A stretch of 40,563 nt of DNA from a virus, in IMG/VR virus record IMGVR_UViG_3300031999_000076, positions 1 through 40,563 of that record, one strand, 5' to 3'. How positions within the stretch are numbered: the first letter of the stretch is position 1; every line of letters begins with the position of its first letter. Below the pieces are notes generated by a model, which was given only the letters and a program-made list of their open reading frames with translations, was not told the DNA's origin and did no database searches. The translations under genes were made by a program, and so were the position numbers. This document shows positions 3,629 to 40,563 of the stretch, one piece after another.

Positions 3629-3656
3629 TCAATTCTCCTTTCATCGGATTAAAAAG

Positions 3657-3738
3657 AGGCCGGGAGGAGGAGCCGCCTGCGTGTGGCCCCCGCCGCCACT
3701 CCCCGCGTGATACGATGCAGCGCATGGACTCCCGGCCT
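3657..3738 (-). other. Structured 82-base element closed by a 10-bp perfect inverted repeat
   Basis: AGGCCGGGAG at 3657-3666 and CTCCCGGCCT at 3729-3738 are perfect inverted repeats enclosing 62 bases. On the minus (transcribed) strand the interior can add small hairpins: ATGC-GCT-GCAT, and GTGGC with GCCAC around a G-rich loop. The size resembles a tRNA, but there is no anticodon arm or TTC loop. It fills most of the unusual 123-base gap between ssb and the next gene. Alternative: a 35-codon frame (3641-3748) rich in Gly, Ala and Pro crosses the same bases; it has no ribosome site and I do not favour it. Confidence 0.45.
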
Positions 3739-4208: not shown

Positions 4209-5216
4209 TCAAAGTTTAGCGAATACCAGTTTTATGCTCGTCCGAAACTGTTCTCTCTGCTTTTGATATTTCAATTTTTCTTGCTCGGGAACGTCATAAT
4301 ACGGAACGAAGTAGGACTTGCTTTCGATAAGATGATCTCCGACATATGCCGTCCGGCCCCGGAACTCGTCTTTGATCTCGTCTTCAAGTTTCTTGAATTC
4401 CTTCGCGGATTTTTGAACCCCGGAATCTATAAGAGTTTGGTACTCCCTGACCCTCAAGAGCCAGTCCTCGTCCGTGACAATCTCGATTTTGCCCGATATG
4501 GCCCCCCTCTGCCGTTCCGGGAAATCAAACTCAGCAAAACCGCAAGATTTACAGACTTCTTTCTCCTCTGCTTTCGGCGGATCGTCCTTTGCGACGCACT
4601 CATTGACATAACGAAGACCATCAAGAAGGCTGGACGCGTAGGATGGGTCAAGTTCGATATCCATGAGGCGCATGGCACCGCCCTCCTTGTCTTTGAACAA
4701 TAGGGCAGAGAGCCTTTTATGCGTCATCAGCATGTAGGCTTGGAGTTGGGCTGGGTAGTGTCGTATCCAGGAGAACGGTGATCTGATAAGATCCTCTTTC
4801 GATTGTGCTCTTGAAACCTTGTTAAACATCGCCGAGGAGCAAGTTTTGTAGTCGATCGGATATTGCTCGCCGTCCACGACGATAAGGTCGTCGAGTTCGC
4901 CCGTTAGTTTCAGCGCCGGCCACTCCAATCTAGGAACATGAATAAGTTCTGCTCCGGCATACGCCAGATCTGCCCTGATCAAGGATTCCTGCTTTGTCCC
5001 TTCCTGGAGCCGAGCTGTCGTTTTCTCGTCGAATCCCTTTCCTTTCTTGGGACAGAGGTGCATCAGGCAAAGTCGCCGTGGACAATCCGAAACCCACCCG
5101 AGTTCGGACGCTCCGGTGAAACCCGGCTTGACAATCTTCTCTCGGGCCTCCGAATCTTCTTTGGCACGGCGCACTCCGGCCTCTTTGAGCAAAGTTGAAA
5201 TTTTCTCGCTGATCAC
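4209..5216 (-). CDS. PD-(D/E)XK exonuclease, Cas4/RecB-like, with cysteine cluster
   Basis: 335 residues. The nuclease core is visible as TGELDDL (105-111), PIDYKT (120-125; the D..D-x-K signature with Asp110, Asp122 and Lys124) and the helix QLQAYMLM (157-164; the QxxxY-type motif). Cysteines before and after the core (Cys45, Cys50 and Cys55 in SDCPRRLCLMHLC; Cys222 and Cys225 in VCKSCGF) suggest a Cas4/AddB-type iron-sulfur cluster. The start is GTG at 5214-5216 with AAGGAG upstream. It lies directly after the RecT-like gene, the usual exonuclease-annealase pairing of phage double-strand break recombination: it would resect ends to give 3' strands for the annealing protein. Confidence 0.8.
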   Translation of the reverse strand: MISEKISTLLKEAGVRRAKEDSEAREKIVKPGFTGASELGWVSDCPRRLCLMHLCPKKGKGFDEKTTARLQEGTKQESLIRADLAYAGAELIHVPRLEWPALKLTGELDDLIVVDGEQYPIDYKTCSSAMFNKVSRAQSKEDLIRSPFSWIRHYPAQLQAYMLMTHKRLSALLFKDKEGGAMRLMDIELDPSYASSLLDGLRYVNECVAKDDPPKAEEKEVCKSCGFAEFDFPERQRGAISGKIEIVTDEDWLLRVREYQTLIDSGVQKSAKEFKKLEDEIKDEFRGRTAYVGDHLIESKSYFVPYYDVPEQEKLKYQKQREQFRTSIKLVFAKL

Positions 5217-5240: not shown

Positions 5241-6239
5241 TCAGAATGGGGGTTCGTTATCTTCGCCTGGTCCGCCGTTTTCTGCTCTTTCTTCTGGCTT
5301 GGGCTGATAAAGTTTGGCCCACGCTATGTATTCCTTCGACAACCACTCAAAGTTAACGATAAGGCGATGAAGATCATTCAGATCACCCTCATGGAAAGAA
5401 AGGTTTTTGAATCGGTTGAGCTCGACAAACTTGACCTTGTGAGTCTTGGCGAAATCGTAGAGAAATATTTTGAAATTCTTTGGGTCGAATGTTTTTTCGG
5501 CGAGTTTTGCCTTAATGGTTTCGATCATTATAGCCTTTTCGTCCTTAACGGGCGTGGTTGCCGGTTTCGGCTCCGCCGTAGGTTTCGCGGCTGGCTTCGG
5601 CTCGGTTGCCGGCGTGGGCAAGGTTTCCTTTTCCGGCTCTTCTTTCTTTTCGACCTTGAGTTCTTTCTGAGGTTCGGGTTTCACCTCTACAATTTCGCCT
5701 GCAGCCGGCATGATGAAGTCTTGCGCTTCCTCAGGGAGGTAGAGACCCAGAACTGCATCTGGAGCGATTTGTCGAACCCCCCTTGCCGCAGCTCTGGCGA
5801 AGTACATGTCCTTTGGGTAAGCTTTCCAGTTGTCTTTCTGCAGGAGTCCCGCCGCTTTGGCGTCCCCCTCGTCGAAAACCGACTTCAATGACGACTTGAA
5901 CCCTGGCCGCGAGAAGGTGATGGTGCAACCCTTATCCGTGGACTCGACTTCCCATGTCACGCCAGCTCGTTGATTCGCTACCGCAAGCATGGCCTTGGCT
6001 TCCATCGTAAGTCGGCCGCTCACGATCACTATTGTATTAAGTGCGGCCACAGGGGGGATCCCCAGCTCCCGACCATACTCAATGATGGCGAAGATCCCTG
6101 GGACGCCGTTTGGCTTCAGCTTCGGCCACATGCCGGAGTCCAGCAACATTTTTGAGATCTCCGACATGTTTTTCGCATCCGGGACAAGGGATTCCGTCTC
6201 TCTTCGTGGGACAATCGCCGTCACGGTTTCTTTATTCAT
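5241..6239 (-). CDS. recT: RecT-like single-strand annealing protein with SSB-like tail
   Basis: 332 residues. The core (about 25-180) matches the phage recombinase RecT-type family: MSEISKMLLDSGMWPK, a GIFAIIEYGRELGIPPVAALN block, NWKAYPKDMYFARAAARGVR, and PDAVLGLYLPEE. A Pro/Glu/Lys/Thr-rich linker (about 185-235) leads to a second small folded domain (about 236-315). The chain ends GEDNEPPF, much like the GEDDDPF tip of this phage's own SSB. ATG 6237-6239 overlaps the preceding stop as ATGA. Its role is to pair complementary single strands during recombination or break repair, with the adjacent exonuclease. Confidence 0.75.
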   Translation of the reverse strand: MNKETVTAIVPRRETESLVPDAKNMSEISKMLLDSGMWPKLKPNGVPGIFAIIEYGRELGIPPVAALNTIVIVSGRLTMEAKAMLAVANQRAGVTWEVESTDKGCTITFSRPGFKSSLKSVFDEGDAKAAGLLQKDNWKAYPKDMYFARAAARGVRQIAPDAVLGLYLPEEAQDFIMPAAGEIVEVKPEPQKELKVEKKEEPEKETLPTPATEPKPAAKPTAEPKPATTPVKDEKAIMIETIKAKLAEKTFDPKNFKIFLYDFAKTHKVKFVELNRFKNLSFHEGDLNDLHRLIVNFEWLSKEYIAWAKLYQPKPEERAENGGPGEDNEPPF

Positions 6240-29813: not shown

Positions 29814-30887
29814 ATGGCACAAAACACTTTGATTTCATCGACACCAACACCAATACCGAAGACGGCAGAAGAAGACCCCGTAAAAAAGTGTTTTGATAAA
29901 TGCGGGGGATATGTCGAACCGTGTTTCAGCCAATGCCTTTATGGAAGAGACTTGGGTTCTTGCAAAACGACTGCCGATTGTCCGACTGGATATGAATGCA
30001 TTGGTGGGGTATGCAAAAAGAAAAGCGAGGTTCCGGTAAATACATGTGAAAGCAAAACAGGGAAGGCTTGCGTAAACAGTTCAGAGTGCGGATACAACGG
30101 GGAATGCGCGGGGGCTTACGTTGACCCCGTTAATAAACGCATTGTGGGCGGAAGATGTCAATGTAAGAAAGGGGAGGGGCATATCTGCAGCGGGGACAAG
30201 GATTGTGCGGCTGGAACCCATTGTGTAAACGGAGCGTGCGTAGCCCTCACGGGCAACAATTGTGTTCGAAATACCGATTGTGCAACCGGAAAAAAATGCG
30301 TCGATGGGATATGCGTTGGCGGTGGCGGTGGCGGTGGCGATGGTGGTGGGGGTGGTGGGGGAGTGGGGGAACAGTTCGGGTGGAGTCCGGAAATCCAGGC
30401 ATTACTCTCCCGTATTCTTGATAGGGCAAATAGTCTCCTTGACCAGCCACTCGGCTTAACCGATGCAGAAAGACAGGCTATTTACAACCGCATCTTTGAA
30501 AGAATCAAGGGAATGGAAAGACCGGCGATTCAATCGATGATGAACGTAGCTTCGCGTCAGGGACTTTTAGGCAGTCCTTATGCGGAAAGAGGAGTTACCG
30601 AAATTCAAAGGGGAACAAGAGAACAACTTGCCAACGCTGAAAGAGACATCGAGATCCAAGAGGCGCAGGACAGATATCAACAACTAATGGGAACGACGGG
30701 AATGGCGCAGAGCCTCCTTGGCACGGGAATGGGTGCGGAACAACTTGTCGAGGCGGCGAACGCCGCGAGAAGGGGAGAGGGAACGTCGTCCATGAATGCA
30801 GTACTTCAATATCTTATTGCGACGGGAGGGCAAAACAGCACTTACTATCAGGCGCTTTTGAACTGGTTGACACAGCATGGAGGGTAA
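29814..30887 (+). CDS. Internal virion protein with cysteine-rich N-terminal domain
   Basis: 357 residues. Residues 26-167 hold 22 cysteines. After an initial CxxxC...CxxxC unit there are three perfect C-x5-C-x5-C-x4-C units (Cys50-67, Cys125-142, Cys150-167; e.g. CKTTADCPTGYECIGGVC). A poly-Gly linker (168-184) joins a helical C-terminal domain (about 188-350) that resembles phage ejection proteins (AERQAIYNRIFERIKGMERP, then SMMNVASRQGLLGSPYAERG). The Cys repeats look like Dickkopf/EGF-style secreted repeats of bacteria such as myxobacteria. Disulfides would only form outside the cytoplasm, so this domain may act at the surface or periplasm. Confidence 0.7.
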   Translation: MAQNTLISSTPTPIPKTAEEDPVKKCFDKCGGYVEPCFSQCLYGRDLGSCKTTADCPTGYECIGGVCKKKSEVPVNTCESKTGKACVNSSECGYNGECAGAYVDPVNKRIVGGRCQCKKGEGHICSGDKDCAAGTHCVNGACVALTGNNCVRNTDCATGKKCVDGICVGGGGGGGDGGGGGGGVGEQFGWSPEIQALLSRILDRANSLLDQPLGLTDAERQAIYNRIFERIKGMERPAIQSMMNVASRQGLLGSPYAERGVTEIQRGTREQLANAERDIEIQEAQDRYQQLMGTTGMAQSLLGTGMGAEQLVEAANAARRGEGTSSMNAVLQYLIATGGQNSTYYQALLNWLTQHGG

Positions 30888-38533: not shown

Positions 38534-38722
38534 ATGCCTTATAAAATTGTAAAGGAAAAAGGAAAATTCTGCGTGGTGAACAAGGACTCCGGAGAGAATA
38601 AGGGTTGCTCGAAATCGGAGCACGAAGCGATCGCCCACCTCCGCGTTTTATATGGGGTCGAAGGGGGAATGAAGCCGACCGGAGAAAAGGGCAAACCTTT
38701 CAGGGTCCGACACGGGAAATAA
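38534..38722 (+). CDS. Small conserved phage protein, last plus-strand gene
   Basis: 62 residues, GGAG upstream of ATG 38534. Begins PYKIVKEKGKFCVVNKDSGE and contains CSKSEHEAIAHLRVLYGVEG, a pattern I recall as a small domain present in many phages with no assigned role. C-terminus basic. Its end overlaps the tail of the opposite-strand RusA gene by 23 bases; no terminator lies between. Confidence 0.65.
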   Translation: MPYKIVKEKGKFCVVNKDSGENKGCSKSEHEAIAHLRVLYGVEGGMKPTGEKGKPFRVRHGK

Positions 38723-39077
38723 TTATCTCGGTCCTGTTGTTTTTCCTTTTCTTCTCAATCTTCTGTTCATACTTATCGTCAAGAAATTCCGGCGAGTCAT
38801 CATAGATGAGTTTCAATTCTTTGATCGCATCTATGAGCGGCTTCAGTCCACCTATAAAGTTATCCTTATCCAAAAAAGATTTTCTGTAAGAGACGATATT
38901 TAGTCTCATTTTTCGAGGTTTTGTAATCACTTCATAGTCAGGATTCTGTTCCCGTAGTTCGGCAAAAACTTCCCAGGCAAAATCATCCTTTAATTCAAGT
39001 CTTTTAAAACGGCACATTCTGAGAAGTGGGTTAAGACTTGGTGTCAAACTTCTGATAACTATTTTCACTTCATCCAC
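38700..39077 (-). CDS. rusA: RusA-family Holliday junction resolvase
   Basis: 125 residues. The RusA signature is complete: SFLDKDNFIGGLKPLIDAIK (Asp70, Asp72, Asn73, Lys79, Asp83) and LIYDDSPEF (Asp93/94). Catalysis is metal-dependent cleavage of branched DNA. The start is GTG 39075-39077. It overlaps the upstream 69-residue gene by 13 bases and the opposite-strand gene end by 23. It serves recombination or packaging by resolving junctions, together with RecT, exonuclease and SSB encoded in the left block. Confidence 0.88.
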   Translation of the reverse strand: MDEVKIVIRSLTPSLNPLLRMCRFKRLELKDDFAWEVFAELREQNPDYEVITKPRKMRLNIVSYRKSFLDKDNFIGGLKPLIDAIKELKLIYDDSPEFLDDKYEQKIEKKRKNNRTEIIISRVGP

Positions 39078-39274
39078 GACTTTCTCTCTTTCTTCCCCTT
39101 GAATACAAAACAGATAAACTTCGATTTTATTTTGGAACCACCGCTTGACCTAAGCACCTTGCAATCCCGCTGGCATTTTTCACACAGCTCCTGAACTCCC
39201 CGTTCTTTGACCCGCAAGTCCCAAGTCCTTTTTCTGTTCGCCGCGCTTTTCCAAAGGCTAAATTGATTGCTCAT
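39065..39274 (-). CDS. Small cysteine-containing basic protein
   Basis: 69 residues, ATG 39272-39274, weak ribosome site. CEKCQRDC (about 31-38) and strongly basic stretches (KKERKSWMK). The CxxCxxxC arrangement suggests a zinc knuckle of the kind found in phage genes next to RusA or NinG. Coupled to rusA. Function unknown; nucleic-acid binding is likely from charge and metal site. Confidence 0.55.
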   Translation of the reverse strand: MSNQFSLWKSAANRKRTWDLRVKERGVQELCEKCQRDCKVLRSSGGSKIKSKFICFVFKGKKERKSWMK

Positions 39275-39298
39275 TATGTCATGCGACCTTATTTTTCT

Positions 39299-39418
39299 AC
39301 CTCGCCCTGCCTCACCCAGCCTTGCCTCACCCTACCTGGCCAAACCCGACCTTGCCAATCCCGACCCCGCCGCACCTAACCTCACCGTGCCCCACCATAC
39401 CAGACCGTGCCATGCCGT
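39299..39418. repeat. Perfect 5-base periodic RCCNN array, 24 units
   Basis: From 39300 CC occurs at every fifth base (39300, 39305, ... 39415) without a slip, 24 times. The base before each CC is a purine in 23 of 24 units; the other two positions vary freely. On the minus strand this is (NNGGY)x24. It lies in the 235-base gap between the holin-like gene's terminator and the 69-residue gene, so it would be in the 5' part of the rusA transcript. No gene crosses it convincingly. Units are too diverse for simple slippage, so only the frame of CC plus purine is kept. Confidence 0.95.
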
Positions 39419-39489
39419 TTTCTATTTTCATTCAATCATTGCTCCTTGTCTCCTACAGCCCCGGAAAGGGGCCAGGCGAAAGGAGGAGC

Positions 39490-39508
39490 AAAACCCGGCC
39501 CCCCGAGG
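39490..39508 (-). terminator. Terminator after holin-like gene
   Basis: On the minus strand CTCGG, loop GGGG, CCGGG (one T-G wobble), then TTTTG, just after the holin-like stop (39510-39512). It is specific to the minus strand because the wobble would be a mismatch on the plus strand. It separates the holin-like gene from the array and rusA. A second hairpin, GCCCC-GGAAA-GGGGC, lies at 39458-39472. Confidence 0.5.
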
Positions 39509-39509
39509 C

Positions 39510-39857
39510 TCAATAACTTTTTTTGACCGCTTTGAACTTTGCTCCGAACAGCACGCTCATGATGATAGTGAGCGCCGTAATGATGGTCTCGGCTGGCAGA
39601 TTCAGACCGAGTTCCTTGTTCAAGGCCGCGAGTATCACGCACACGAACGCAAGTAAGAACTTCGGATCCTTCCAACGTCCAGCCTGAGCACCGATCTTCT
39701 TCAGGTCGAGCTTGGCCTCGAAGAGGACGTAGAGGACCACGGCCGTCAGACCACCCAGGACCGTCATCGCGTCCATCCCCAGGCCGAACTGCTCCTTGAA
39801 GAATGCCAGGATCGCCGTGATGACGCCCAAGACCGCAAGCAACGTTTTCCTGCTCAT
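39510..39857 (-). CDS. Holin-like membrane protein with internal duplication
   Basis: 115 residues from ATG 39855-39857 (AGGAGG eight bases away; a GTG three codons earlier would abut the site). Four hydrophobic segments. The two halves are alike: LLAVLGVITAILAFFKEQFG with TVLGGLTAVVLYVLFEAKLD, and LLAFVCVILAALNKELGLNL with TIITALTIIMSVLFGAKFKA. The C-terminus is basic. Small multi-span protein by a lysis-type block; holin is the most likely function, but no family signature is recognised. Confidence 0.6.
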   Translation of the reverse strand: MSRKTLLAVLGVITAILAFFKEQFGLGMDAMTVLGGLTAVVLYVLFEAKLDLKKIGAQAGRWKDPKFLLAFVCVILAALNKELGLNLPAETIITALTIIMSVLFGAKFKAVKKSY

Positions 39858-39869
39858 GGTGAGCACCTC

Positions 39870-40465: not shown

Positions 40466-40563
40466 TTAGAAAACTCAATATTTCCACTCATTATGGATAG
40501 AATATTGTAAGAATTTAGACCGTATTGATCCTTAATTTCCGAGGCCACCTCATTGAATCTGGG
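40462..40563 (-). CDS. Partial small protein, 3' end only
   Basis: An open frame enters from the right edge and stops at TGA 40462-40464; 33 codons are visible (begins PRFNEVASEIKDQYGLNSYN). Charged/helical then mixed. The start is outside the window, or, if the molecule is circular, could be the gene at 1-115. Direct joining of the two edges is out of frame by one base, so bases are missing or they are different genes. Confidence 0.5.
   Translation of the reverse strand, partial: PRFNEVASEIKDQYGLNSYNILSIMSGNIEFSK

Follow-up and report, generated by a model that had tools for sequence, protein, structure and literature searches.

The window analysed here was an entire IMG/VR virus contig, 40,563 bases long; the record was linear, without terminal repeat, and encoded lysis, head, packaging and replication genes. 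An array of 24 pentamers was located 1.1 kb from the contig end (Table 1). On the minus strand, a holin-like gene and a terminator-like stem lay upstream of the array, and downstream of it there was a 69-aa ORF followed by the rusA gene. A preliminary description made from the raw letters had put the array between the holin-like gene and rusA, and this arrangement was confirmed, with the 69-aa ORF as an additional element between array and rusA. Part of a block conserved in one of the relatives of the holin-like gene (L135), at about 39456-39486, was right beside the terminator-like stem. No sigma-70-like promoter was found before the array. The remaining 1.1 kb on the side away from rusA contained the holin-like gene and a 153-aa ORF. 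Elsewhere in the window, a Cas4-domain exonuclease-like gene adjoined a gene for a RecT-like annealing protein (4209-5216 and 5241-6239, both on the minus strand), and a GC-rich hexamer repeat (GCGGTG, 7 copies) was present within an ORF at 30313-30370.

Table 1. Features in and around the pentamer array (window coordinates)
Feature	Position	Strand	Remark
RusA-like Holliday junction resolvase gene, downstream of the array	38700..39077	-	PHROG 1682, E 1.5e-6
69-aa ORF, directly 3' of the array, between array and rusA	39065..39274	-	no family match
Sequence 3' of the array	39240..39296	-	no strong hairpin; AAGG and ATG of the 69-aa ORF
24-unit GGYNN array (probable vrRNA-type guide region)	39297..39416	-	read 5' to 3' from 39416 to 39297
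Sole Y-less unit, GGATT (unit 12)	39357..39361	-	splits the array under strict GGY matching
Terminator-like stem, flanked by the holin-like gene and the array	39494..39507	-	consensus match only
Holin-like gene, upstream of the array	39510..39866	-	PHROG 9987, weak, E 0.003; relatives L130-L136

On the plus strand, 24 successive CC dinucleotides followed one another at 5-base steps from 39300 to about 39416 with zero steps missed. Our recount at 39300-39416 agreed with the initial reading of a slip-free array of 24 units with two free positions and a purine before CC in 23 of them, the exception being TCCCG at 39359. The minus-strand unit was GGYNN, with Y present in 23 of 24 units, and under strict matching the array broke at the GGATT unit, giving two runs that each had 12 GG steps. 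Both free positions ranged over most dinucleotides. Their letters on the minus strand were AT AC CT AT GG AC GA TA GC GG CG TT for units 1-12 and AA CG TT CA AG GA AA TG GA AG GA AG for units 13-24. A coding role was rejected for both strands: the plus-strand reading was a repetitive Pro/Ala peptide, the 34-aa minus-strand reading hit a stop within the array, and neither was gene-like. An Rfam search of the array produced no real match, and blastn against named phages gave no match.

The regularity of the array was compared with all dinucleotides in the window at periods 4 to 15, array harmonics set aside, and the runner-up was a run of 9 (GG, period 6, at 30318). When sequences were simulated with a first-order Markov model of the whole window, 300 runs gave at most 5 steps versus the 24 observed, and sequences modelled on the array's own composition gave at most 9 steps in 5000 runs. 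With the frequency of Y at the free positions taken as background, the probability of finding Y in at least 23 of 24 units was about 2e-10. Chance, or a low-complexity repeat produced by microsatellite-like slippage, did account for a few matches of the survey described below, where four of the 120 listed loci (L103, L110, L117, L118) were plain microsatellites. For the window array this reading was refuted by the diversity of the units, the lack of indels, the simulations and the Y-constraint counts, and we gave it practically no weight. The preliminary description had reached the same view on chance and on recent slippage.

The form of the minus strand was the one described for VIPR (Viral Interference Programmable Repeat) systems, phage relatives of CRISPR that were first described in April 2026 (PMC13142463, bioRxiv). 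A VIPR system consists of the RAMP protein Vipr and of vrRNAs, which are made of 9-16 tandem YNNGG units and then a tail; the GGY triplet does not vary, and the NN letters pair noncontiguously with double-stranded DNA, one base being skipped per step (PMC13142463). The published systems repress competing phages, and the described examples are Escherichia phage SUSP1 and a Pseudomonas fulva prophage (PMC13142463). VIPR types with staggered overlapping arrays and with hammerhead-interspersed arrays were also mentioned, and a structured invariable 3' tail was described for the SUSP1/type II clade (PMC13142463). Like a vrRNA, the window array was built of pentamers in tandem, GGY being constant and NN hypervariable, and it occupied a noncoding stretch of a phage genome on the strand of the neighbouring operon. 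On the strength of this exact match to the GGY/NN repeats of vrRNAs (PMC13142463), the minus strand of the array is very probably a VIPR guide array of the vrRNA type, whose own Vipr is absent from the record. The initial statement that no element of this form had been described therefore did not stand.

There were also differences from the published vrRNAs. The window array had 24 units rather than 9-16; arrays of 20-43 units were also held by Vipr-bearing records. It had no obvious structured 3' tail, with the first 40 nt 3' of the array folding at an MFE of -2.3 kcal/mol (z -0.13). However, many arrays of Vipr-bearing records also lacked such a tail, and therefore it does not define all VIPR types. 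Finally, the window contained a single array between the holin-like gene and rusA, its record encoded neither Vipr nor a recognised vap gene, and its target was not found in the contigs scanned.

The preliminary description had proposed to look for RCCNN arrays of 10 or more units in other phage contigs. IMG/VR viral contigs were scanned for ten consecutive RCCNN units, and at least 120 loci of the same form were found, the 120 considered here being the first matches listed by the scan and thus a non-random set. These loci contained 316 GGYNN arrays of at least 8 units with an NN entropy of 3.90 of 4 bits; their G+C ranged from 0.39 to 0.73, and several arrays per locus were often present. Among 44 control viral records, none had an array of 8 units. 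Two of the loci had a peculiar layout. In L011 (640-1220), arrays of 10-17 units alternated with a near-identical stretch of about 50-60 bp bearing a strong hairpin, an inverted CRISPR-like arrangement where the spacers were constant and the arrays variable. In L096 (4601-5060), a short constant stretch, CCCATTAGCC, was located between successive arrays at steps of about 68 bases.

When the ORFs around the arrays were clustered with the arrays masked, one dominant family was obtained, with proteins of about 200 aa and a RAMP fold, whose genes typically adjoined the arrays. This family corresponded to PHROG 4652 (phrog_4652), of unknown function in the PHROG library. It was present in 93 of the 120 listed array records (39/50 and 24/40 in two search sets plus 30 other records found earlier) versus 0 of the 44 control records, and wherever adjacent genes were called, its gene was always on the GGY strand. 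A profile of 43 family members matched the entry 'SUSP1 Vipr protein' (PDB 36pp) at E 6e-40; for the AlphaFold model of the family (pLDDT 96.8), the closest folds in the PDB were those of Csm3/Cas7 RAMP subunits. Because of this match and this fold, the family is the Vipr of VIPR systems. The initial suspicion that the frame of the units is constrained, or that some machinery stands behind the array, was right. The GGY arrays of the named phages wV8, LESphi2 and LittleE adjoined their Vipr genes. In phage wV8 (L239), repeats that the depositors named 'DR_4' and left unexplained (2253-2310 and 3646-3703) overlapped or adjoined vrRNA arrays.

A second family, PHROG 15946 (phrog_15946), with proteins of about 165 aa and the motif LHxxFEWDDxxAAxxxRxxQARxLI, was found beside arrays in 15 listed loci (L013, L018, L050, L075, L089 and others). 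Its recurrence beside arrays makes it a candidate Vipr accessory protein (vap). The search for vap genes in the window covered this cluster, and no member was found.

The presence of a guide-binding protein beside other arrays also bears on the two other functions that had been proposed initially. The first of them was G-quadruplex formation, considered here as a G-quadruplex or i-motif element with a role in the mRNA of rusA or in DNA, since GG at every fifth base could in principle give two-tetrad quadruplexes. However, such quadruplexes require neither the exact 5-base period nor the Y after GG, whereas both are explained if a RAMP protein forms a filament along a guide of GGY/NN units. The local folding energy of the array strand was that of shuffled sequences in a secondary-structure model that leaves tetrads outside, and in other listed records the same array form tracked a RAMP guide-binding protein. 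The second proposal, sites for a protein that binds double-stranded DNA or a packaging or recombination site, would fit units that follow one another at every half helical turn. In other loci the strand sense of the arrays followed the adjacent vipr gene, a behaviour that fits an RNA better than a DNA site, and no family of DNA-binding partners recurred beside the arrays as Vipr did. We consider both proposals very improbable. As the preliminary description had it, the strand that matters is the minus one, which is also that of rusA.

Under the guide-array reading, a transcript of the form (GGYNN)24 would be the RNA on which the Vipr RAMP oligomerises, presumably with one Vipr subunit per 5-nt unit. 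The protein would hold on to the constant GGY and present the NN dinucleotides to DNA as a noncontiguous guide (NNxNNx...). Through the relation of Vipr to Csm3/Cas7, this resembles the Class 1 CRISPR effectors, in which RAMP subunits form a filament on an RNA guide. In contrast to CRISPR loci, the window array had no palindromic repeats and spacers and no adjacent cas effector genes, and its guide would be noncontiguous. Another regular RNA is bound by TRAP, whose NAG-repeat targets carry triplets at a spacing of about 5 nt along an mRNA leader. The window array shared this spacing, in what may be an mRNA leader, but it differed in the triplet (GGY) and in having more units, and the protein fold is different.

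The array was located in the putative leader of the 69-aa ORF, whose start was preceded by a Shine-Dalgarno-like AAGG. A gene start came right after 49 of 155 surveyed arrays, about a third, versus 9% at random places, and for this reason the place of the window array may be an mRNA leader. Arrays directly in gene leaders were seen, for example, in L028, L034, L083, L105 and L033, and several times the leader was that of vipr itself. The leader position suggests that guides are cut from mRNA leaders or that there is self-regulation.

Target sites were sought by decoding the NN letters with one skipped base (NNxNNx...); five 8-unit blocks served as queries for viral contigs, and for genome contigs a single 9-unit block was used. 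There was no convincing target among the matches of either scan, and the matches extended at the chance rate. The best of them, in L150, covered 13 of 24 units, which was within chance over the matches inspected. It lay in frame within a small protein, with the skipped base at wobble positions, and this protein had no further relatives in the collection; as a target, L150 is suggestive at most. The block of units 5-12 gave 49 matches, most of them in a single redundant phage protein that has KRPAYSVP at its end, where no more than 1-2 further units matched.

In the 40,563-base record, which is possibly incomplete, no Vipr or other RAMP was found with the family profile A1, the phrog_4652 model, an unfiltered six-frame search and the Pfam RAMPs (PF03787). 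The array was also absent from the relatives of the holin-like gene (43-59% identity), and it is therefore an accessory element of its own phage lineage. The preliminary description had named such an absence in related phages as the sign of a local accident. The absence was indeed observed, but the accident was not borne out because more than 100 other phage records carried the same array form. Three Vipr-bearing records (L022, L056, L108) had very long or staggered arrays of up to 43 units between vipr and rusA (L022:6311-7391, L056:7248-9152, L108:3965-5142), in the order vipr, arrays, rusA on one strand. In these records rusA started 40-75 bp after the last array. The window array resembled them in being a long GGYNN array 5' of rusA in the same order and on the same strand, with the holin-like gene in the place of vipr. 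It differed in that the three loci had 6-17 array segments and a vipr gene about 100 bp or less from the arrays, while the window had one array and no vipr.

Two explanations of the missing Vipr accept the vrRNA-type reading and differ on how the gene came to be absent. According to the first, the contig end has interrupted an ordinary VIPR locus: vipr and more arrays would lie past base 40563, or in some stretch missing from the record, and the window array would simply be the last one. The array was close to the end of a linear record without terminal repeat, and most listed array records encoded Vipr. However, in L022, L056 and L108 vipr and further arrays, opposite the rusA side, were kept within about 2.5 kb of rusA, where the window had the holin-like gene and the 153-aa ORF. 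Moreover, with the lysis, head, packaging and replication genes already in the record, little may be missing, and 23 other listed array records also lacked Vipr. A cut locus therefore deserves real consideration, even if we think it is not the likelier case. The second explanation is a degenerating relic, where a former rusA-side VIPR locus lost vipr and its other arrays and the remaining array no longer works. The place and orientation relative to rusA, the single unit without Y and the lack of an obvious tail would agree with this, but 23 of 24 GGY triplets were intact at unchanged spacing, a state hardly to be expected if drift had been relaxed for long. We regard the relic as rather unlikely.

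The 23 further listed records with arrays and no recognised Vipr included several of 35-105 kb; some of the 23 were fragments and some of their arrays were perhaps not genuine. Degenerate GGYNN arrays without a Vipr or RAMP match were present in records of 35-105 kb such as L016, L025, L029, L032, L060, L101 (31 units), L112 and L123, and these are possible orphan arrays.

Thus, the vrRNA-type array of the window may be a guide unit served by a Vipr encoded elsewhere, be it the other contig end, the host or a co-resident prophage, or alternatively it may be a remnant of a VIPR-rusA locus. Tentatively, and with less weight than the cut locus, we put forward that a lone long vrRNA array could act in trans on the Vipr of a host, a co-resident prophage or a co-infecting phage, either redirecting it to the array's own targets or jamming it as an RNA decoy (anti-VIPR). 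RNA anti-CRISPRs are built from solitary repeats, and an RNA anti-VIPR decoy is comparable in idea. The 23 other Vipr-less records would be candidates for the same class.

The form of the array has been known in kind since April 2026, and it is its lone state without Vipr that is noteworthy. The raw sequence independently supports the GGY/NN guide-array form, in at least 100 uncultivated viral records. Arrays without a vipr gene represent a state that was not discussed in the main text of the VIPR preprint (PMC13142463). The recurring site directly 5' of rusA provides a concrete handle for finding more arrays. If arrays of this orphan type do work in trans or serve as decoys, the outcome would be a second layer of conflict added to that of VIPR, and a source of natural inhibitors.
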